From NCBI GenBank assembly GCA_017415145.1, contig JAFQJE010000006.1:1-35317 (forward strand): a stretch of 35,317 bases of DNA, written 5' to 3'. The stretch comes from Clostridia bacterium (GTDB taxonomy: Bacteria > Bacillota > Clostridia > UBA1381 > UBA9506). Within the stretch, counting starts at the first letter, position 1. Every line of letters begins with the position of its first letter. The translations under genes were made by a program, and so were the position numbers. Shown piece by piece: positions 4,146 to 18,635 of the stretch. The notes beneath the pieces are model-generated. The model did not search any database. It saw nothing but the letters and a program-made list of their open reading frames with translations, and was not told the DNA's origin.

Positions 4146-4177
4146 AAACAGTTAAAAGATAAAAGTATAAAGATAAG

Positions 4178-4223
4178 AGAAAAGGAAAATAACTCGTCAT
4201 ATGACGAGTTATTTTCCTTTTCT
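4178..4223. repeat. 46-bp perfect palindrome between convergent genes queA and dut
   Basis: Two 23-bp arms meet at 4200/4201 with no spacer. The right arm begins ATGACGAGTTATTTTCC and the left arm is its exact complement. In RNA from either strand it would form a long stem; as DNA it could extrude a cruciform. The plus-strand right arm is followed by a pyrimidine-rich run, so it could act as a strong terminator. Its length and perfect symmetry exceed those of the other terminators in the window. Confidence 0.85.
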
Positions 4224-4251
4224 TTTCACTATTCTCTTTGCTTTCTTCTCT

Positions 4252-9529: not shown

Positions 9530-11095
9530 TTAGTCACCAATACTTTCTATATAAATATTGAGCATACCGTAAACCATCTTTACTGCTTCCTGACGTGTAG
9601 CATTTTTCCTAGGATTAAAGTTTCCTAAATCATCTCCTGAAATAATTAGACCTCTAATAGCGTAAACATGAATCTTTGCATAATCTGCAATTTCTGCATC
9701 ATCCTTAAAGCCTTCCAAATCGCCTGCAGGAAGCTCTATACCCTGAGATTTTAAAACAGTGTTTATGATTTTTGCCATATCCTGACGGGAAATGTACATT
9801 CCTGTACCAAATCTGCCGTCGCCTACACCACCGATAATGCCTGATTTTTGTGCAGATGCCACATATTTGTAATACCATGCATCTCTTGCCACATCAATAA
9901 AGTCAGTTTCGGCATTTTCATCAACCAAATCAAACAGTTCAACCACAAGCTTTACAAACTCTTCTCTGGTAATGGGATTATCAGGCATAAATTCTGTTTG
10001 TGATTTTCCGTTGATTATTCCTCTGGCATAGAGTGCTGCAATATAGCTCTTTCCCCAGCCATTAGCATCAATAAAGGGATATGGAGCAGTCCTTATAACG
10101 TACACCTTACCCGGCTCTAAGGCCGCTTTGATTCCACCGTCACAAGGGATAGAGTACTTCACTTCACTTAATATGCTTGAACCCACCAATCTGTAAATCA
10201 TGGGATTATCCGATTTTACCTTTACATCTACAATTGAGGGGATGCTTTCCTTGGTCTTTATAACAACCGAACCTTCAAATACGCTTTTTGCCACTCCTGA
10301 CATACTGTCTATTACAGTATAATATTCAGTGTCACGCACCGCTGCCGCAGGAGGAACTGTACCATCTCCTATCACCTTGCACACTCCTAAATCTGCAAGT
10401 GCTAAGGCAGTATGTCTTTTATCCGTATCTGCCACCCAATTCAAAAAGTTTGCCATACCCTCTGCGAGCTTGTATGCCGTAATTGTCTTGCCCTCAGCGG
10501 TTTCATAACCTGCCCACACTTCATCAAACTTTGTTGAAAAATCAGGATTTACATTTGCAACAGTAAACACGCCGTCTTTAAAATTGAAGAGTGCTCCGCC
10601 GTTTATCTCAGGGATTATCTTTAACATATTGGCAATCACATCAGAAGTATATCCGTCATCTGCCAGCACAATTTTTGCCGCAGGAGACTGGTCGTACAAT
10701 ACTTTTGTCATTTGGTTAATTCCGTAGACGATCGCATTACTGATGCTTGCGGGCACTTTATTTTGAAAAATGTCTGCATATTTCAGTCTGATTCCTGTGC
10801 TTTCGTCTATACAGCCAAAGCTTTTGAATACTCGTATTGCTGCATCTTTTTCTTTATCTGTCATTGTAATACCCAGTATTGACTCAAACATACCTGAGTT
10901 TACGTTGTCAATACCTGCCGCAACTCCCGCATCAGTAGTCAAAAACGGTCTGAGCATAGCAATATATTGTGCACGCTGGTCTTGCGGATATCTTGCCAAT
11001 ATTTCAAAAAATGAATTTGTTGCGCCACGAGCCGCTACACTCATGGGTGTAACTGCTATCACAAGTACTAATATAAATGAGATTATTCTTTTCAT
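9530..11095 (-). CDS. Exported SLH-domain protein, last gene of the surface cluster
   Basis: The 521-residue product begins with a signal peptide (MKR, then a hydrophobic stretch ending near ARG, about residue 24). The central part (about 30-330) has no family that I recognise. Three SLH repeats occupy the C-terminal third: FIDANGWGKSYIAALYARGIING, FIDVARDAWYYKYVASAQKSGIIGG and a more degenerate third, each with the TREEF/SRQDM/TRQEA helix. SLH domains bind pyruvylated secondary cell-wall polymers, so the protein should sit on the cell surface. AGGAG lies 6 nt before the ATG. It follows another SLH gene of similar size and build, separated by a 55-bp gap with a hairpin. Confidence 0.9.
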   Translation of the reverse strand: MKRIISFILVLVIAVTPMSVAARGATNSFFEILARYPQDQRAQYIAMLRPFLTTDAGVAAGIDNVNSGMFESILGITMTDKEKDAAIRVFKSFGCIDESTGIRLKYADIFQNKVPASISNAIVYGINQMTKVLYDQSPAAKIVLADDGYTSDVIANMLKIIPEINGGALFNFKDGVFTVANVNPDFSTKFDEVWAGYETAEGKTITAYKLAEGMANFLNWVADTDKRHTALALADLGVCKVIGDGTVPPAAAVRDTEYYTVIDSMSGVAKSVFEGSVVIKTKESIPSIVDVKVKSDNPMIYRLVGSSILSEVKYSIPCDGGIKAALEPGKVYVIRTAPYPFIDANGWGKSYIAALYARGIINGKSQTEFMPDNPITREEFVKLVVELFDLVDENAETDFIDVARDAWYYKYVASAQKSGIIGGVGDGRFGTGMYISRQDMAKIINTVLKSQGIELPAGDLEGFKDDAEIADYAKIHVYAIRGLIISGDDLGNFNPRKNATRQEAVKMVYGMLNIYIESIGD

Positions 11096-11112
11096 ATGTT
11101 TCTCCTAGGTCT

Positions 11113-11143
11113 AAGAAATCCGCAGCGGTGCTGCGGATTTCTT
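11113..11143 (-). terminator. Hairpin between the two SLH genes
   Basis: AAGAAATCCGCAGC (11113-11126) and GCTGCGGATTTCTT (11130-11143) form a perfect 14-bp stem with a 3-nt loop in the 55-bp gap. On the minus strand it ends in TTTCTT. It could act as a partial terminator that lowers expression of the downstream SLH gene, or as an mRNA-stabilising or processing stem. No separate promoter is evident between it and the next ATG. Confidence 0.7.
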
Positions 11144-11150
11144 AAATGTC

Positions 11151-12692
11151 TTAGTTTAATTTTCCGATTTCTTTGTAGTAATCGATTACACCATAGATAA
11201 TCTTTGCAGCTTCAGCTCTTGTTACGTTGTTTAAGGGCTTGAATGTACCATCGGGATAACCGTTTACAATACCTAATTCGCTTGCATGAGCAATGAAGGA
11301 CTCAGCATAGCCATGGATTTCATGACTATCGTCATACACCGTCTTCATGTCTTCTTCTGTCATTGCTGCGTATCTCATAACAACTGCAATCAATTCCTGA
11401 CGAAGGATTGTCTTGTTGGGCTTGAATTCGTTATCGTCATAGCCTGTGTAGATGCCCATTTCAACCATTAAGTTGATAGCACCTCTGCCCCATGCTGCAA
11501 CATTTTGATCGTCTGCAAAGCCTGTATCCTTATCAGCATATTCTGCTGCTTTCTCTTCTAAATCTAAAGCACGCGTCATGATAACTGCGATTTCCTGTCT
11601 TGTAACACCGATGTCAGGTTTAAAATTGCCATCATCGTAACCTGTTAAAATGCCCCTTGCTTCCAAATCACGAATTACATCTTCTGCCCAGTGACCAACG
11701 ATATCAGGGAACTTAACTGCAGGTACATCGGGTTCTACGGGCTTGTCGTCTTCCTTGGGAGGAAGTCCTCCACCACCGCCACCGAGGATGCTGCCGCCCT
11801 GCTGACCTGTTGTGGGACGAGTAGCAATTGTCATCGAAGGGCCATAAAGGTCGATATCTGTATGCCTTAATACAACCTTTAAATTTTCAATATCTTCTGT
11901 AAATGAATTGAAAAATTTAACAATACCACAGATAATATCGTAACCCTCTGCCTTAGCATTAGGAGATGTGCTAACTGAAACGCCGTTTACATTTGTTGCA
12001 TCTATGTATGATGCTAAGTTTGTAGCAAAAGTTTCGTCGTATGTCGCAAGAGCAAAATCGCCGTTGCCTGAGTCTGTCATTTTGAACTGACCCTTGAACG
12101 CTGTTAAGAGCAGTAAGAAGTTGTCAACATCTAAGGTTTCTACCTCGCTTGTCACCGGATCTGTATAGTGATGCTCGCCTGCAAACTTATCACGAATAGA
12201 TTGTGGAACATATCTGTCATAGATAGCGTTTGCTGCAGTCAACTGCTCTGTGGTCATATTTTGGAGCTTGTTCATTACGATTTCAGTTGTGATAGAGTCA
12301 CCTGCACCGCCGAACAAGTTAAGTGACGCTGAACGTTTTGCAACAGGAACTGCCTTGTACACATTAAGCAAGAAAATAAATCCGTCTCTTGTAGCCTGTG
12401 ATTCGTTCTGTAAGTTGTCGATAAAATCTTTAAAGCCTGCATCTGTAGCAGGGAGAGTGATTTGACCCTTTACAGCCTTGATGATTGTGTCGATACCATT
12501 TGTGCCGTCAACCATGTACGGCTTGAAGATGTTCCACACAGCTATTCTTTCCATAGCGTCGTTGGGCATCATTGTTTCAAGCTTGGTAAATAAGTTTGAC
12601 ACGTCTGAATTGCCTACATCAACTGCCATAACGGGGCATACCATTGTAAGCATCATTACTGCAGCGATAAGTGCACATAATAACTTTTTCAT
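11151..12692 (-). CDS. Exported SLH-domain protein, middle gene of the surface cluster
   Basis: The product (513 residues from the chosen start) has a signal peptide (MKKLLCALIAAVMMLTMVCP, cleavage probably after VMA), an unrecognised helical N-terminal domain (about 30-300), a Gly-rich then Pro/acidic linker (SILGGGGGGLPPKEDDKP) and three C-terminal SLH repeats (FPDIVGHWAEDVIRDLEARGILTG, then two more with TRQEI/LRQEL/TRAEA). The ATG at 12692 is preferred because AAGGAG lies 8 nt upstream; the in-frame GTG nine bases earlier overlaps that site. Its target is presumably the cell wall. It follows the small membrane-anchored protein gene by 39 bp. Confidence 0.92.
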   Translation of the reverse strand: MKKLLCALIAAVMMLTMVCPVMAVDVGNSDVSNLFTKLETMMPNDAMERIAVWNIFKPYMVDGTNGIDTIIKAVKGQITLPATDAGFKDFIDNLQNESQATRDGFIFLLNVYKAVPVAKRSASLNLFGGAGDSITTEIVMNKLQNMTTEQLTAANAIYDRYVPQSIRDKFAGEHHYTDPVTSEVETLDVDNFLLLLTAFKGQFKMTDSGNGDFALATYDETFATNLASYIDATNVNGVSVSTSPNAKAEGYDIICGIVKFFNSFTEDIENLKVVLRHTDIDLYGPSMTIATRPTTGQQGGSILGGGGGGLPPKEDDKPVEPDVPAVKFPDIVGHWAEDVIRDLEARGILTGYDDGNFKPDIGVTRQEIAVIMTRALDLEEKAAEYADKDTGFADDQNVAAWGRGAINLMVEMGIYTGYDDNEFKPNKTILRQELIAVVMRYAAMTEEDMKTVYDDSHEIHGYAESFIAHASELGIVNGYPDGTFKPLNNVTRAEAAKIIYGVIDYYKEIGKLN

Positions 12693-12731
12693 ATTTTCCA
12701 CTCCTTAAACTTTTATGTTAATTTATTAAAA

Positions 12732-13196
12732 TCACTCTTCTAACAGGTGCAGATATTTAGCATAGTAGCTTTTTATCTGGTCTTTTTCTTTTTGACCCAA
12801 ACGGGTACGGATTAATTCATATGCCGCTTTGAACTTTTTGTTGTCCACGCCACCCACGGCATATGACAAAAGGGTTTGATAATCTTCTTTTGACAGGCTC
12901 TTAGCTAAAATACCCAGCACCGCCAATTTGTCCGAAACTGTAACCTTGGTTTCGAGCTTTTTCATGGTCGCAGCATCCAAGACTACTGAAATGTGCTTTG
13001 TTTTATCAACGGCATTTTTATTATCCAACACAGGTAAATCTACTGCTTCACCTGTTTCCTCCATGGTTTTTCCCACGGATTCCGTCACTTTGGAAAATGC
13101 AGTATTTACTGCAATGTATGTACCTACAGTGCCTAAAATAAGCACACTTGCAAGTGCAATTGCTATTATGAGGAGTTTTTTCTTTTTCTTTGTCAT
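12732..13196 (-). CDS. Small membrane-anchored protein of unknown function
   Basis: This 154-residue product starts with a Lys-rich stretch and one membrane helix (about residues 7-30), followed by an extracytoplasmic helical domain. I recognise no family. The tail (KDQIKSYYAKYLHLLEE) is rich in charge. The ATG at 13196 is selected because AGGAGGAGG lies just upstream; a GTG further upstream would overlap this site. It is the first gene of a three-gene operon with two SLH proteins and shares a strong promoter with them, so a role in export, anchoring or assembly of these surface proteins is possible, but this is only inferred from position. Confidence 0.75.
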   Translation of the reverse strand: MTKKKKKLLIIAIALASVLILGTVGTYIAVNTAFSKVTESVGKTMEETGEAVDLPVLDNKNAVDKTKHISVVLDAATMKKLETKVTVSDKLAVLGILAKSLSKEDYQTLLSYAVGGVDNKKFKAAYELIRTRLGQKEKDQIKSYYAKYLHLLEE

Positions 13197-13245
13197 TATC
13201 CTCCTCCTCACTTATACCTTTAGACAACAAACACTATTTTATAAT

Positions 13246-13274
13246 ATTATAACTCTAAACAATAAAAAAGTCAA
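13246..13274 (-). promoter_or_regulatory. Promoter of the three-gene surface cluster
   Basis: On the minus strand TTGACT (13274-13269), a 17-bp spacer and TATAAT (13251-13246) form a near-consensus promoter with a leader of about 43 nt. The two hexamers are identical to those of the large SLH gene at 15037-18120. Confidence 0.8.
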
Positions 13275-13298
13275 TATGCAAGTAATTTTAAAAAAGAC

Positions 13299-13327
13299 TT
13301 TACAATTTAATCGGTTTATGGTAAAAT
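13299..13327 (+). promoter_or_regulatory. Promoter of tRNA-Thr
   Basis: TTTACA (13299-13304), a 17-bp spacer and TAAAAT (13322-13327) precede the tRNA by 23 bp. Confidence 0.75.
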
Positions 13328-13350
13328 AGTTTTCGTGGAAAAGTTAATAT

Positions 13351-13426
13351 GCTGATGTGGCACAGTTGGTAGCGCAACGCCTTGGTAAGGCGTAGGTCGG
13401 CGGTTCAAGTCCGCTCATCAGCTCCA
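13351..13426 (+). tRNA. tRNA-Thr (anticodon GGT)
   Basis: The 76-nt sequence folds into a full cloverleaf: acceptor GCTGATG paired with CATCAGC, anticodon stem ACGCC/GGCGT around loop TTGGTAA (anticodon GGT, threonine), T-loop GTTCAAGT and an encoded CCA end. It has its own promoter and terminator. Confidence 0.97.
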
Positions 13427-13464
13427 AAAATGCAGAGTACTCTTTATGGATACTCTGCATTTTT
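13426..13464 (+). terminator. Terminator of tRNA-Thr
   Basis: AAAAATGCAGAGTA (13426-13439) and TACTCTGCATTTTT (13451-13464) form a 14-bp stem that starts at the tRNA CCA end and is followed by a T run. Confidence 0.9.
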
Positions 13465-13488
13465 TATATGCAGAAGTAAACGTTCAAA

Positions 13489-13545
13489 AAAGCCTCCCTC
13501 TGACGAGGGAGGTGGATTTTGCGAAGCAAAAGACGGAGGGAGAGA
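13489..13545 (-). repeat. Double-hairpin repeat, left copy
   Basis: In its own (minus) orientation it reads a 17-bp block ending CCCTCCGTCTTT, a 14-bp variable part and a 26-bp block with the hairpin CCTCCCTC-GTCA-GAGGGAGG. The variable part with its edges forms the hairpin TTTTGC-TTC-GCAAAA, whose bases differ from the other copies but still pair. The two constant blocks (43 bp) are identical to the other copies. Confidence 0.9.
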
Positions 13546-13550
13546 TGTAA

Positions 13551-13922
13551 CTATCCTTCCGTCTTTGTCAAATTATATTTCTTTACACAAGAATCTATGT
13601 ATTCGCATACTCCATGAAAGTTTTTATTTATATCGCTATTAGAAATTCTTACTACTCTTATTCCCAATTTGTTTAAAATTGTTGTTCTTTCTTCATCACT
13701 TTTTTCACCATTCGTTTCATAATGTTGGGATCCATCGATTTCAATTACCAACTTTGCCTTTGCACAATAAAAATCTACTATGTATTCTCCTATTGCTTTT
13801 TGTCTTTGAAACCTAACAGGATGTGAACGCAAAAAATCATACCATAATTTTCTTTCTTGTGCTGTCATATTTTTCCGTAATATCTTTGCTAGCGGGATAT
13901 TTTCTTTTTTGTATACTATCAT
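13551..13922 (-). CDS. DUF559-family (Vsr-like fold) endonuclease-type protein
   Basis: This 123-residue protein matches DUF559, a family with the very-short-patch-repair/PD-(D/E)XK nuclease fold. Typical features: the N-terminal AxxLRxNMTxxExxLW segment (residues 12-27), FQRQxxIGxYIVDFYC (38-53), the core E-x-D in VIEIDGSQH (Glu61, Asp63, His67) with Asp50 as the preceding acidic residue, and a closing LGIRVVRISNSDI strand. The start at 13922 is set by GGAGGG (13935-13930), 7 nt upstream and inside the flanking repeat, so the repeat supplies the ribosome site. The last codons run into a degenerate copy of the repeat's CCGTCTTTGTC block. Function is unproven; it may act on the repeats or be their passenger. 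Confidence 0.85.
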   Translation of the reverse strand: MIVYKKENIPLAKILRKNMTAQERKLWYDFLRSHPVRFQRQKAIGEYIVDFYCAKAKLVIEIDGSQHYETNGEKSDEERTTILNKLGIRVVRISNSDINKNFHGVCEYIDSCVKKYNLTKTEG

Positions 13923-13924
13923 TT

Positions 13925-13981
13925 TCTCTCCCTCCGTCTTTGTCCAAGACAAAGACACCTCCCTCGTCAGAGGGAGGCTTT
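13925..13981 (+). repeat. Double-hairpin repeat, right copy
   Basis: It contains the 17-bp block TCTCTCCCTCCGTCTTT, a variable middle forming GTCTTTGTC-CAA-GACAAAGAC, and the 26-bp block with CCTCCCTC-GTCA-GAGGGAGG ending in GGCTTT. It is the inverted partner of 13489-13545. Its complement carries GGAGGG, the ribosome site of the DUF559 gene. It ends 4 bp before the stop codon of the nucleotidyltransferase gene. Confidence 0.92.
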
Positions 13982-13985
13982 CGCT

Positions 13986-14885
13986 TTATGATAATTTTTC
14001 AGGATATAATCCGTCTGCAATCAATTTCTTGATAGAATCTATTACAACAGGTGCGTCTTCTTTGTATGTAACACCGAACCACTTGTCGTTGGTTGGGAGA
14101 ACCTTGACAGTTGCTTTTCCGTCCTTAATCATTCCGTCAACGATTGAGGGGAGGAGATATTCTGCCTTTAAGTCGCCCTCTTTGACATTAGATAAAAATT
14201 CTATAAACCCATTTTCTAAGCCGTCGATAAATTCAGGAGATAATCCCCACATATTCATTGAAACGTAAGAAGCTGCATCAATGGGACCATCAGGAGTTTT
14301 AGCACCAGTGCCGTCTTTTTCGATGTCGCCTGTTTCTACAACGTCAACCAACATACCATTTGCGTCTACTTTACATACTCCACGTGTTACGCCGCCGTTG
14401 TCAGATAAGGTGTTCTTTAAGATGAAGCCTGCCATACAGAAAGCATAGGGGTTTGACTTTGCTTCGTCTGATACTAAAAAGTCGTGAATTTTCACGAACG
14501 CTTCTTTACCATAGTAGTCGTCAGCATTGATTACCAAGAATGGCTCATTTACAATACCCTTTGTTGAAAGGATAGCATGACCTGTGCCCCAGGGTTTTTT
14601 ACGTTCAGCAGGTGTTACGAAACCTCCGGGAAGATTGTCGTTTTCCTGAAAGGCATACTCTACCTTACAGATTTTTTCTATACGGTTGCCGATAATTTCT
14701 TTGAAGTCTTTTTCTAAATCACGGCGAATAATAAATACTACCTTGTTAAAGCCTGCCTCGAGGGCGTCATATATAGAATAGTCCATAATGATTTCACCGT
14801 TGGGACCGACGGGTGCTAACTGCTTGATGCCACCGCCAAAACGTGAGCCTATACCTGCTGCCATAATTACTAATGTTGTATCCAT
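13986..14885 (-). CDS. Sugar-phosphate nucleotidyltransferase
   Basis: The 299-residue protein belongs to the nucleotidyltransferase family that joins a sugar 1-phosphate to an NTP to make an NDP-sugar. The N-terminal MAAGIGSRFGGGIKQLAPVGPNGEIIMDY is a variant of the GxGxRxxPxTxxxPK nucleotide-binding motif. PWGTGHAIL and NADDYYG (about residues 119-125, metal-binding Asp) follow. The C-terminal part lacks the left-handed beta-helix of acyltransferase fusions. The base and sugar cannot be told from the sequence. NDP-sugar supply would suit cell-wall polymer or S-layer glycan synthesis, and the gene is next to S-layer-type genes. It has its own promoter; GAGAGGA precedes the ATG. Confidence 0.88.
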   Translation of the reverse strand: MDTTLVIMAAGIGSRFGGGIKQLAPVGPNGEIIMDYSIYDALEAGFNKVVFIIRRDLEKDFKEIIGNRIEKICKVEYAFQENDNLPGGFVTPAERKKPWGTGHAILSTKGIVNEPFLVINADDYYGKEAFVKIHDFLVSDEAKSNPYAFCMAGFILKNTLSDNGGVTRGVCKVDANGMLVDVVETGDIEKDGTGAKTPDGPIDAASYVSMNMWGLSPEFIDGLENGFIEFLSNVKEGDLKAEYLLPSIVDGMIKDGKATVKVLPTNDKWFGVTYKEDAPVVIDSIKKLIADGLYPEKLS

Positions 14886-14925
14886 GATAATTCCTCTCTT
14901 TTTACATTTCTAAAACTACAGATAT

Positions 14926-14954
14926 AGTATAGCACAATAAGGGAAATATTTCAA
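14926..14954 (-). promoter_or_regulatory. Promoter of the nucleotidyltransferase gene
   Basis: On the minus strand TTGAAA (14954-14949), a 17-bp spacer ending TGC and TATACT (14931-14926) form a good promoter; the TGC gives an extended -10. The leader is about 35 nt. Confidence 0.75.
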
Positions 14955-14977
14955 GGGGTATATTAAAAGCATAAAAA

Positions 14978-15003
14978 AAGAGGACACTTTACAGTGTCCT
15001 CTT
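14978..15003 (-). terminator. Terminator of the large SLH gene
   Basis: AAGAGGACACT (14978-14988), loop TTAC and AGTGTCCTCTT (14993-15003) form an 11-bp stem. On the minus strand it is followed by a long T run (14979-14973 complement), a strong intrinsic terminator 33 bp after the stop codon. Confidence 0.93.
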
Positions 15004-15036
15004 AATTTGTTTAAGTTATTAACTTACAAACTCAAA

Positions 15037-18000
15037 TTATTTTGTGAGGTCTAAGTCGTAACCTGTACCAACTGCAACTTCAACAGCGGGTGTTGTAGCA
15101 GCGTTGTCACCTGTCCACCATGCATTGCTGTTTTCGATAACTACCATAACCATATCTTCGATTCTTTCGTTATCGTTAACCTTAGCAACTACCATGTAAG
15201 CTAATGTAGGTCTGATTGTTTCCTTAATAGAATCAACCTTGATAGCTGAAACTTCAGCACCTGCTGATAATGTAGCATCATACTTAGCGTATGTGAAGTC
15301 ACCATCAACATATCTGAACTTCACGCCGTCTGTAGCTTTACCCTGAGCATCGAATGTTGTAGCGAGTGTGATTGCATCGCCAAACTGAGCAACGATACCT
15401 GTTACGTAAGCGTACTTGTCTGCGTTGTCAGATACTGTCTGAGCAGCTAATGTGTTATCAAGATCCTTATTAGATGCATCGTAAACCATCTGGATTTCCT
15501 TGATTTCGTTTTCTGTGTTTGTTACGTAAAGAACTACGTCACCAACACCAAGTGTTGTGTGTGCATAATCTGCATCAGCTTTGAGTTCTACTATTTCGCC
15601 ACCCTGTACAAATGTGTACTTCTTAACAGGTGTGTCGTCATTATCTAAAGCGTCAGATACTGCAGCAACAACTGCGAAAGGAGCTTCCTGTAAACCGTAA
15701 GCGGGTTTCTTTGTTGAGAAAGCTGCTACTAATGTTTCATCATCTGTATCTAATGCATAGAGGTATGCATCGTATGTTTCTTTTTCGTCAAGTGTTGAGA
15801 TGTCGATGATGTCAACCTTGTCTTCGTCAATGATCACTTCGCAGTAAGCAGGTGTTGTATTAACTGCTGCTACTTCTACTGCTTTGAAAGGAGCAACGAA
15901 CATCTTAGCGTCTGCGATGTCATAAGCGCCTAATGTAGCGAAGTCTGCATCGTAGTCATGTGTTGCGTTGTAATCCTGAGCGATCTTTGCGCTGTCATCT
16001 GTTGTTCTGATTTCAGCGAGTTCGCCGTTAGCGTTTAATTTGTAAGAGATGAATCTCTTTTCAGCCGAATCTTCAGCCTTCTTCATAGCATAGTACTTAG
16101 CTTCTACAGTATTTGTTACCTTGTTATCAGCTGTTGTATTAACAGCAGGTGTCAAACCAACAGCAGGTGTGATTTCCTCTACTGCTTCGTTATCAATAGT
16201 ATCATTTACTGAGAATTTGTTCTCTAAAGCAGCAGCCTCAAGACCTGCGAAGTATGAAGCCTGTGTGCCGTCTGATGTCTTCTTAACTGTTAATGTATCA
16301 GCTGTGTATGTCTTTAATGAAGCAGCAACAGGATATGTAGCAACCTTGCCGTCTTCTGTTAAGAGCTTAACCTGATATGTTGTTGTACCGAATTTTGTTT
16401 CGCCTTCAGCAGCCAAGATAACTGCGAAGTTCTTAGAAACAACTGATGTTGTATCCTTCAATACGATTTTGCCATCGATTGAGATGAAGAACACACCTGT
16501 GTCACCAGCTTCGATTGTACCGCCTGTAGCGTTTGTATATTTTTCGCCATCGATTACGTACTTAGCAACTGATGACATGTATTCAGAAACTGAACCTTCG
16601 ATTGTTTCGTTTGTTACATAGATATCTAAGTAAGAAACGTTGTGGATATCGTCTCCAACTGTTACGATAGGAGCAACGATGTTAAGAACGTTACCTTCAG
16701 CAACATCTTCTAATGTGATAGCGTTGCCGTTAGCATCGAAGAGGTTGTAGATGAAGTCATCACCACGAACTTCTGTGCTGAGGTCAAGTGAGCTTGAAGG
16801 CTTGAACTTAATGATTTCGTCTTCAACCTTAACGCTGTCAACTACTTTGTATACATATTCTGTAACGAAGATCTTGTCGTAGGGCTTGTTCTTTGTACCC
16901 ATGAATTCGATCTTAGAAGCAGCCTTTAACATAAGTTCGAGTGAACCATAGTTGCCGTAGCCTGATGCTAACTTCTTACCATTGTAGAAGATTTCAGGTG
17001 AAGCTGCGATTTCGATTTCTGTAGCGTATCTGTCTGTTCTGTTTTCTTTGTAAGCAACAATTGTTGAATCTGTTGTGTTATCGATTGTGTCGAAGTTTTC
17101 TGTGATTGTTTCTGTAGCTGTTGTCTTACCGTCAACAACGATAGCTAATAATTTCCAATCGTTGAGTTCTTCGTCTTCAGCAACGTAAGCTTCAACTGTT
17201 GAACCTAAGAGGTCAGCTGCTTCTGTAGCACCTGCGTATACAGCAACTTCTGCATAGCTGTCAGCATCGATGCCATCAACAGCACCAAGTTCTGTTGCAA
17301 CGCTAGCATAGTTGTAATCGTATGTATCTATAACTTCGATTTCAACCATTTCGTTGCCAGCTTTGTCGATAAGTGTTGTGTCAGCCTTAGGAACGCTGAT
17401 GATTTCAGCCTTAACCTTGATGATATCGTTTGAGAATGTTAAGAGTGTTCTTAAATCATAACCGTTCTTACCGTTGTAGATAACGTATTTGTCATCTTCA
17501 ACTGATACACCGTAGTATGATACGTCAACTAAAGGAGCTGTTAAAGCATTGTAGATTAACTGAGCAATGATTTCTCTTGTAGCAGCCTTAGCGTTGTCGT
17601 AACCAGCATCCTTAAGTACGCCGTACTGAGAAGCTAACTTTAAGTAACCTGTGGGGTAACCGCCGTTTTCAGCTCTCTGTGCGATACGGTCATAACCTAA
17701 TGCACGCATGATCATAACTACTGCATCCTGATATGTAACTGATGCATCGGGTGCGAATGTGCCGTCGCCCATACCATTGATGATACCACGGTTTACGCCC
17801 CAAGCGATGTAGCCTGCTGCCCAGTGGTTAGCTGCAACATCTGTGAAAGCATTTGAAGCTGAAGCTGTAGCGATATCTTCTTCGCCCATAGCACGGCAAA
17901 CAAATGCAACCATTTCTGATCTCTTAACGTCGTTTGTGGGGTTGAAGTTACCTGCTTCGTCACCCTTAGCGATGCCAAGACCAGAGAGTACCTTAATAGC

Positions 18001-18120
18001 CTTGTAATAGCTATTTGTGGATTCAACATCCGCGTAATCAGCAGCTGCTACTGTAGCAAAAGAGCTAACGAGCATAATCACTGCGATGATTACAGAGATT
18101 AATTTTTTGAGATTTTTCAT
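15037..18120 (-). CDS. Large SLH-domain protein, probable main S-layer protein
   Basis: The 1027-residue product has a signal peptide (residues 1-27, ending TVAAA) and three SLH repeats at the N-terminus (about 28-200: DYADVESTNSYYKAIKVLSGLGIA; FTDVAANHWAAGYIAWGVNRGIING; a weaker third). The remaining 800 residues are acidic, rich in Val, Thr, Asp and Ala, with no membrane segment, as in secreted beta-rich S-layer bodies. I recognise no enzyme domain. N-terminal SLH domains on a large acidic body, a near-consensus promoter, a structured 128-nt leader and a strong terminator all suggest a highly expressed surface-layer protein. The preferred codons look more uniform than in neighbouring genes (frequent GTA, GCA, GTT, GAT), but I have not measured this. 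Confidence 0.88.
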   Translation of the reverse strand: MKNLKKLISVIIAVIMLVSSFATVAAADYADVESTNSYYKAIKVLSGLGIAKGDEAGNFNPTNDVKRSEMVAFVCRAMGEEDIATASASNAFTDVAANHWAAGYIAWGVNRGIINGMGDGTFAPDASVTYQDAVVMIMRALGYDRIAQRAENGGYPTGYLKLASQYGVLKDAGYDNAKAATREIIAQLIYNALTAPLVDVSYYGVSVEDDKYVIYNGKNGYDLRTLLTFSNDIIKVKAEIISVPKADTTLIDKAGNEMVEIEVIDTYDYNYASVATELGAVDGIDADSYAEVAVYAGATEAADLLGSTVEAYVAEDEELNDWKLLAIVVDGKTTATETITENFDTIDNTTDSTIVAYKENRTDRYATEIEIAASPEIFYNGKKLASGYGNYGSLELMLKAASKIEFMGTKNKPYDKIFVTEYVYKVVDSVKVEDEIIKFKPSSSLDLSTEVRGDDFIYNLFDANGNAITLEDVAEGNVLNIVAPIVTVGDDIHNVSYLDIYVTNETIEGSVSEYMSSVAKYVIDGEKYTNATGGTIEAGDTGVFFISIDGKIVLKDTTSVVSKNFAVILAAEGETKFGTTTYQVKLLTEDGKVATYPVAASLKTYTADTLTVKKTSDGTQASYFAGLEAAALENKFSVNDTIDNEAVEEITPAVGLTPAVNTTADNKVTNTVEAKYYAMKKAEDSAEKRFISYKLNANGELAEIRTTDDSAKIAQDYNATHDYDADFATLGAYDIADAKMFVAPFKAVEVAAVNTTPAYCEVIIDEDKVDIIDISTLDEKETYDAYLYALDTDDETLVAAFSTKKPAYGLQEAPFAVVAAVSDALDNDDTPVKKYTFVQGGEIVELKADADYAHTTLGVGDVVLYVTNTENEIKEIQMVYDASNKDLDNTLAAQTVSDNADKYAYVTGIVAQFGDAITLATTFDAQGKATDGVKFRYVDGDFTYAKYDATLSAGAEVSAIKVDSIKETIRPTLAYMVVAKVNDNERIEDMVMVVIENSNAWWTGDNAATTPAVEVAVGTGYDLDLTK

Positions 18121-18577: not shown

Positions 18578-18635
18578 TCTCTCCCTCCGTCTTTGTTTAA
18601 AAACAAAGACACCTCCCTCGTCAGAGGGAGGCTTT
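18578..18635 (+). repeat. Double-hairpin repeat, solo copy
   Basis: The third copy of the repeat, 58 bp, has both constant blocks (17 and 26 bp) identical to the copies flanking the DUF559 gene. The middle differs: GTCTTTGTTT and AAACAAAGAC pair around an AA loop. No nuclease gene is beside it. It lies 27 bp after the stop codon of the PfkB kinase gene, so like the right copy it sits close to a gene's 3' end. Confidence 0.92.

Follow-up and report, generated by a model that had tools for sequence, protein, structure and literature searches.

A DUF559 gene between two inverted repeats

The window, by which we mean the whole stretch of 35,317 nucleotides analyzed here, belongs to the draft genome of a Clostridia bacterium (1.12 Mb, 85% complete). 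It contains a small gene of the DUF559 family on the minus strand (ATG at 13922, stop at 13551, 372 nt), located between two 57-nt arms at 13489-13545 and 13925-13981. In the inverted-repeat comparison of the window, these arms are separated by a gap of 379 nt and are 84% complementary. The downstream repeat begins 5 bp past the DUF559 stop codon, and the inter-arm space outside the reading frame amounts to 5 + 2 = 7 bp. The coordinates and the reading frame therefore confirm the claim of an earlier note on this DNA that the gene fills all but 7 bp between inverted 57-bp repeats. The features of this unit, and of a further repeat in the window, are as follows.

13489..13545, plus strand: repeat at the downstream end of the unit, a potential intrastrand triplex (PIT), tail towards the gene
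13493-13500: Y-arm of the downstream-end repeat, CCTCCCTC
13505-13512: R-arm of the downstream-end repeat, GAGGGAGG
13513-13534: hairpin-2 loop of the downstream-end repeat
13535-13542: third strand of the downstream-end repeat, GGAGGGAG
13551..13922, minus strand: DUF559 gene, 123 aa, predicted Vsr-like (EDxHD) PD-(D/E)XK nuclease (D50, E61, D63, H67)
13925..13981, minus strand: repeat (PIT) at the upstream end of the unit, tail towards the gene
18578..18635, minus strand: solo PIT, geneless, upstream of the gene for a 1027-aa SLH protein

Read towards the gene, the repeat follows the order CCTCCCTC-loop-GAGGGAGG-hairpin 2-GGAGGGAG, in which the final block exactly mirrors the purine arm and hairpin 2 constitutes the loop before the third strand. 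The earlier note had described a double hairpin; the two hairpins are indeed present, and the fuller form consists of hairpin 1, hairpin 2 and a purine tail that mirrors the purine arm of hairpin 1. A PIT requires a pyrimidine arm, a complementary purine arm and, in mirror image, a purine third strand, all on one strand, and this arrangement is exact in all three copies of the window. PITs occurred three times in the real window and not at all in 10 shuffled windows. The window contains 6 matches to the repeat core, where chance would give 0.02. Judged by their sequence, these repeats are potential intrastrand triplexes of the purine motif, the structural class of the E. coli BoxC element. Hairpin 2 is retained as a structure and not as a sequence: across the order and class, 30 sequences contained 23 distinct stems, with a mean stem of 6.0 bp as compared to 2.7 bp after shuffling. 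The third strand of the upstream repeat is located 5 nt ahead of the DUF559 start codon (GGAGGGAG-AGAAA-ATG), and this tail looks like the Shine-Dalgarno site of the gene as well.

With at most 2 mismatches tolerated in the core of hairpin 1, only three copies of the repeat were found in the draft genome, together with a single DUF559 gene. Because the three copies in the window account for the total of the draft genome, the repeat is not abundant in its source. No target-site duplication was seen at the window copy, as had been stated before. Within the family, 9 other genomes contain relatives of the neighboring nucleotidyl-transferase gene; among those examined, the window neighborhood was absent and no empty site for the window copy was found.

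Several other features of the window were recorded. Directly after a tRNA-Thr(GGT) gene, and 24 bp before the unit, a perfect 14-nt inverted repeat followed by a T-run (13426-13464) probably serves as a standard intrinsic terminator. Around the unit, at 9530-18120, are genes for three large proteins that look secreted (521, 516 and 1027 aa), and the 1027-aa protein matches the S-layer homology domain. Further away, a 78-bp palindrome with 39-nt arms (82% complementary, no spacer) occupies positions 4162-4239.

The product of the DUF559 gene matches the Pfam family DUF559 (PF04480) at 6e-31, with 106.9 bits against a curated cut-off of 20.6. Residues D50, E61, D63, H67 and D76 were invariant in 35 homologs, and the catalytic residues D / E-x-D-x-x-x-H are conserved in the window protein. 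For its AlphaFold (AF2) model (pLDDT 88), the best match among solved structures was NGO0050 (3HRL; Z 14.8, rmsd 0.9, 91 residues aligned), followed by I-Bth0305I (Z 12.8, rmsd 2.3, 95 aligned) and Vsr (Z 10.4, rmsd 2.2, 100 aligned), with Holliday-junction resolvases and TnsA next at Z ~7. Pfam, residue invariance and structural matches all agree with the earlier assignment of a Vsr-like PD-(D/E)XK fold with Asp50, Glu61, Asp63 and His67, and on the strength of the model we describe the protein as a predicted PD-(D/E)XK endonuclease with a Vsr / I-Bth0305I-like fold. The E. coli protein YcjD has previously been recognized as a PD-(D/E)XK/Vsr relative (PMC1189080), the Caulobacter DUF559 protein VsrA has been implicated in a Vsr-like process (PMC12907096), and a link between DUF559 and EDxHD enzymes has been drawn previously (PMC9403480).

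Association of PITs with DUF559 genes

We collected DUF559 loci by protein similarity alone, ignoring their flanks, and used the other, neighboring open reading frames of the same loci as controls. An inverted-repeat score of at least 26 was reached by 63% of 102 DUF559 loci and by 2.7% of 221 control reading frames, and a score of at least 44 by 27% and none, respectively. A PIT was found no more than 220 bp away at 96 of 116 DUF559 loci, as compared to 18 of 191 controls (Fisher p ~3e-40), and PITs were present on both sides at 53 of the 116 and at 0 of the 191 (Fisher p ~3e-27). The same layout, at close and regular positions, therefore flanks DUF559 genes elsewhere. The tails of these PITs point inward (p ~0.002 on each side). 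We settled on the definition of a PIT with the first loci already in view, but neither the inverted-repeat test nor the genome-wide pattern test described below relies on it. The association extends over Clostridia, Nitrospirota, Poribacteria, Bacteroidota, cyanobacteria, alphaproteobacteria and gammaproteobacteria, with sequences that differ locally. DUF559 genes without repeats made up 20 of the 116; among them, Acidaminococcus provencensis carries two DUF559 genes that are nearly identical and lie 14 kb from each other, neither with flanking PITs (L057, L060).

The repeat and the gene also occur together across genomes. The window-type pattern was present in 6 of the 95 genomes of the order, all 6 of which contain DUF559, as compared to 35/95 overall (p 0.002). 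In the class, where a DUF559 match was counted as strong at E < 1e-20, 13 of 245 genomes had the pattern, and DUF559 was found in 10 of these 13 versus 33/245 overall (p 1e-7). At the family level, class-wide, 8 of the 9 families with the window-type repeat have DUF559 (p 7e-6). A reversed-pattern control gave 0 matches in the genomes of the order and class. Three genomes (G153, G226 and G303) contain the window-type repeat and no DUF559 gene, so the dependence of the repeat on the gene is not absolute.

In E. coli, the DUF559 gene ycjD is located between sapF and fabI, followed by BoxC elements. Genomes with ycjD (n=37) contained 14-28 BoxC places (median 21), whereas those without it (n=23) contained 1-16 (median 5), such that the BoxC count separates the two groups with an AUC of 0.98 over 60 evenly drawn records. 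Because the distribution of ycjD follows the E. coli phylogroups (PMC12817139), this contrast is consistent with a role for the nuclease in the repeats but represents few independent events. Since ycjD-positive strains hold more loose repeats and the gene sandwiched between repeats recurs widely, DUF559 is a good candidate for the agent that spreads them.

The unit at unrelated sites

Eleven Clostridial loci share one unit, AAAAGCCTCCC...DUF559...GGGAGCCTTT. At the left end, for 8 of these 11 loci, pairwise identity was 0.91 over the first 30 bp inside the unit and 0.35 over the 30 bp outside; at the right end, for six loci, the corresponding values were 0.89 and 0.38. The ends of the unit coincide with the outer edges of the hairpins at unrelated sites, so that the whole unit is present at such sites with identical ends. 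Units from family f1 (L006) and from two genera of family f4 (L011 and L170) have 640-714 bp in common at 89-91% identity, within contigs that are otherwise largely unrelated. In family f47, one locus (L209) carries a unit similar to these three, and another (L210) carries a solo repeat identical to that of the window over 54 nt. Moreover, three genomes (G006, G013 and G015) each contain different copies of the unit at different sites. No target-site duplication was seen at the gene-bearing units compared among the Clostridial loci. Taken as sequence comparisons, these results support well the conclusion that the unit moves as a whole.

Differences between occupied and empty sites, which the earlier note had put forward as a check, were found at strain and genus level in two places. 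At the Rhizobiaceae dsbA-smc site, Shinella PSBB067 has an empty allele, S. zoogloeoides has the hairpin repeat without the gene, Sinorhizobium K101, C101 and M103 have the repeat with an intact DUF559 gene, and S. meliloti Ak57 has a truncated DUF559 gene fused to the repeat. At pstB-pstA, some E. coli strains have, and others lack, a 92-bp BoxC segment that is bounded by 8-bp repeats, AACCGTGT, and has another AACCGTGT inside it; the empty allele has a single AACCGTGT. This difference fits a BoxC insertion with target duplication, and it could equally be a deletion between direct repeats.

No clean BoxC insertion was found at lptG-yjgR or ypfG-tkt in the E. coli strain comparison, the other strains having an apparent classic REP at these two sites, and yraQ-dolP was rejected as an insertion site, as it was not a simple gap. 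The flanks of the S. meliloti locus L153 were likewise set aside, their matches being mainly to dispersed repeats. The Sphingomonas arrangement pntA-DUF559-pntAB was not retained as an insertion site either: because the comparison records are only ~70% identical, the junction is unreadable. On a plasmid of Sphingomonas parapaucimobilis, a PIT-flanked DUF559 gene lies inside the NAD(P) transhydrogenase operon (L144, 995-1390). Two E. coli intergenic sites (L205/L208 and L206/L207) have BoxC in one strain and an apparent classic REP in the other, with conserved outer flanks.

Relation to known repeat systems and possible modes of spread

Knowledge of BoxC elements in E. coli dates back to the 1990s, and BoxC/PIT/intrastrand triplex repeats are widespread, having been catalogued in thousands of genomes with no mobility activity reported around them (PMC4666352). 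Like these, the window repeats have a pyrimidine arm, a loop and a purine arm, together with a purine third strand in mirror image, and are short, dispersed and intergenic in many bacteria. They differ in that the third strand is preceded by a spacer that forms a conserved second hairpin of its own, and in having a regular nuclease-gene partner, whereas BoxC/PIT repeats were described with no mobility gene. The earlier note had called this a candidate undescribed system; the class of the repeats is known (PMC4666352), whereas no report of their association with a nuclease gene was found in the non-subscription literature searched.

The layout also resembles that of REP and REPIN sequences with their RAYT genes (PMC3116915, PMC3733652), in which a small gene lies between inverted hairpin repeats, solo repeats and inverted pairs occur elsewhere, and distribution is patchy. 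The window does contain a gene between inverted hairpin repeats, which are also found solo; its enzyme, however, is not an HUH tyrosine (Y1) transposase but a Vsr-like PD-(D/E)XK DUF559 nuclease, and for this reason the unit is not a member of REP/RAYT. In addition, the window repeats are triplex-capable and the GTAG tag is absent. CGTC-tagged REPs have been reported to have no dedicated transposase (PMC3733652); CGTC precedes hairpin 2 of the window repeat on the opposite strand, by which a relationship to these REPs is only suggested. The protein shares its fold and catalytic residues with EDxHD homing endonucleases (I-Bth0305I, PDB 3R3P) and with Vsr (1VSR, 1CW0), but its gene is outside any intron or intein, is bounded by PITs, and is of a type that recurs at many unrelated sites. 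NGO0050 of Neisseria (PDB 3HRL) and E. coli YcjD belong to the same DUF559 family; they are known from structure and sequence annotations, and the literature searched shows no repeat association for them.

Together, these observations establish that the repeat-nuclease unit is real and widespread and behaves as a mobile element. Layout, unit ends, co-occurrence, presence/absence and fold all favor the earlier proposal of a REP/RAYT-like repeat-gene-repeat system with a Vsr-like nuclease, and we give a probability of about two in three to the reading that the unit is a small selfish system driven by this (EDxHD) nuclease acting on PIT ends. We infer both the action of the nuclease on the PITs and its chemistry, whether transposition or homing. 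A DUF559 gene bounded by two head-to-head PIT hairpins would be the selfish unit, and solo PITs and PIT pairs its non-autonomous relatives. A PIT would be extruded as hairpin or triplex DNA on a single strand, such as the lagging strand, where the nuclease would recognize it and nick or cut; strand transfer or break repair may then place a copy of the unit or of a PIT pair at another location.

An alternative, to which we assign a distinctly smaller share, is that the PITs spread by other means (template switching at hairpins during replication, or another host enzyme) and that DUF559 is a free-standing EDxHD homing gene, which invades PIT pairs by break repair using the PITs as homology. EDxHD relatives, I-Bth0305I among them, are homing enzymes (fold match at Z 12.8), gene units show no target-site duplication, a repeat-only allele exists where a related genus carries the gene (L197 versus L145), and the three genomes with repeats and no gene would be expected. 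However, repeat copy number tracks gene presence, and the units bring their own repeats, with fixed ends, into unrelated flanks, the latter not being needed for homing alone. Quite improbable is a host-serving role, in which the nuclease processes or repairs PIT hairpins or triplexes, or TG mismatches, and the PITs next to its gene serve regulation (terminator, Shine-Dalgarno site or autoregulation). The implication of Caulobacter VsrA in a Vsr-like process (PMC12907096), the resemblance of the window PIT tail to a Shine-Dalgarno site, and the stability of ycjD in E. coli phylogroups A, B1 and C (PMC12817139) would fit such a role, yet the distribution of DUF559 is patchy (35/95 genomes of the order), some copies are decayed, single genomes carry several different unit copies, and near-identical units occur in different families at unrelated sites. 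Accidental placement of DUF559 genes between PIT hairpins common in intergenic DNA, as they are in some genomes (E. coli genomes have a median of 18 BoxC places), is ruled out by the controls (core matches versus expectation, inverted-repeat score, PIT counts), with PITs on both sides at 53/116 DUF559 loci and none of the neighboring reading frames, and by the sharp homologous ends of the unit.

More generally, DUF559 nucleases may be the missing mobilizing enzymes of BoxC/PIT repeats across phyla, forming a class of transposable elements in which a Vsr-like nuclease recognizes hairpin or triplex ends and solo PITs and PIT pairs are miniature derivatives; for this broader proposal we consider the odds to be even. 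As their regular partner, the gene would be the first candidate enzyme for the spread of BoxC/PIT repeats, and the pairing a second, unrelated solution to the problem solved by REP/RAYT. It would suggest a function for the abundant, uncharacterized family DUF559, and would raise the possibility of a DNA enzyme that recognizes triplex structure. E. coli K-12, with ycjD and ~20 BoxC copies, makes this reading testable.

Among PIT pairs no more than 150 bp apart, 14 were inward, 7 outward and 9 in the same orientation, a slight inward lean in small numbers. One genome (G019) contains a 220-bp dispersed repeat with a head-to-head PIT pair mid-way (L182, 1467-1690; L193, 1467-1690; L194, 642-866), which by its sequence is a nested or composite miniature element.
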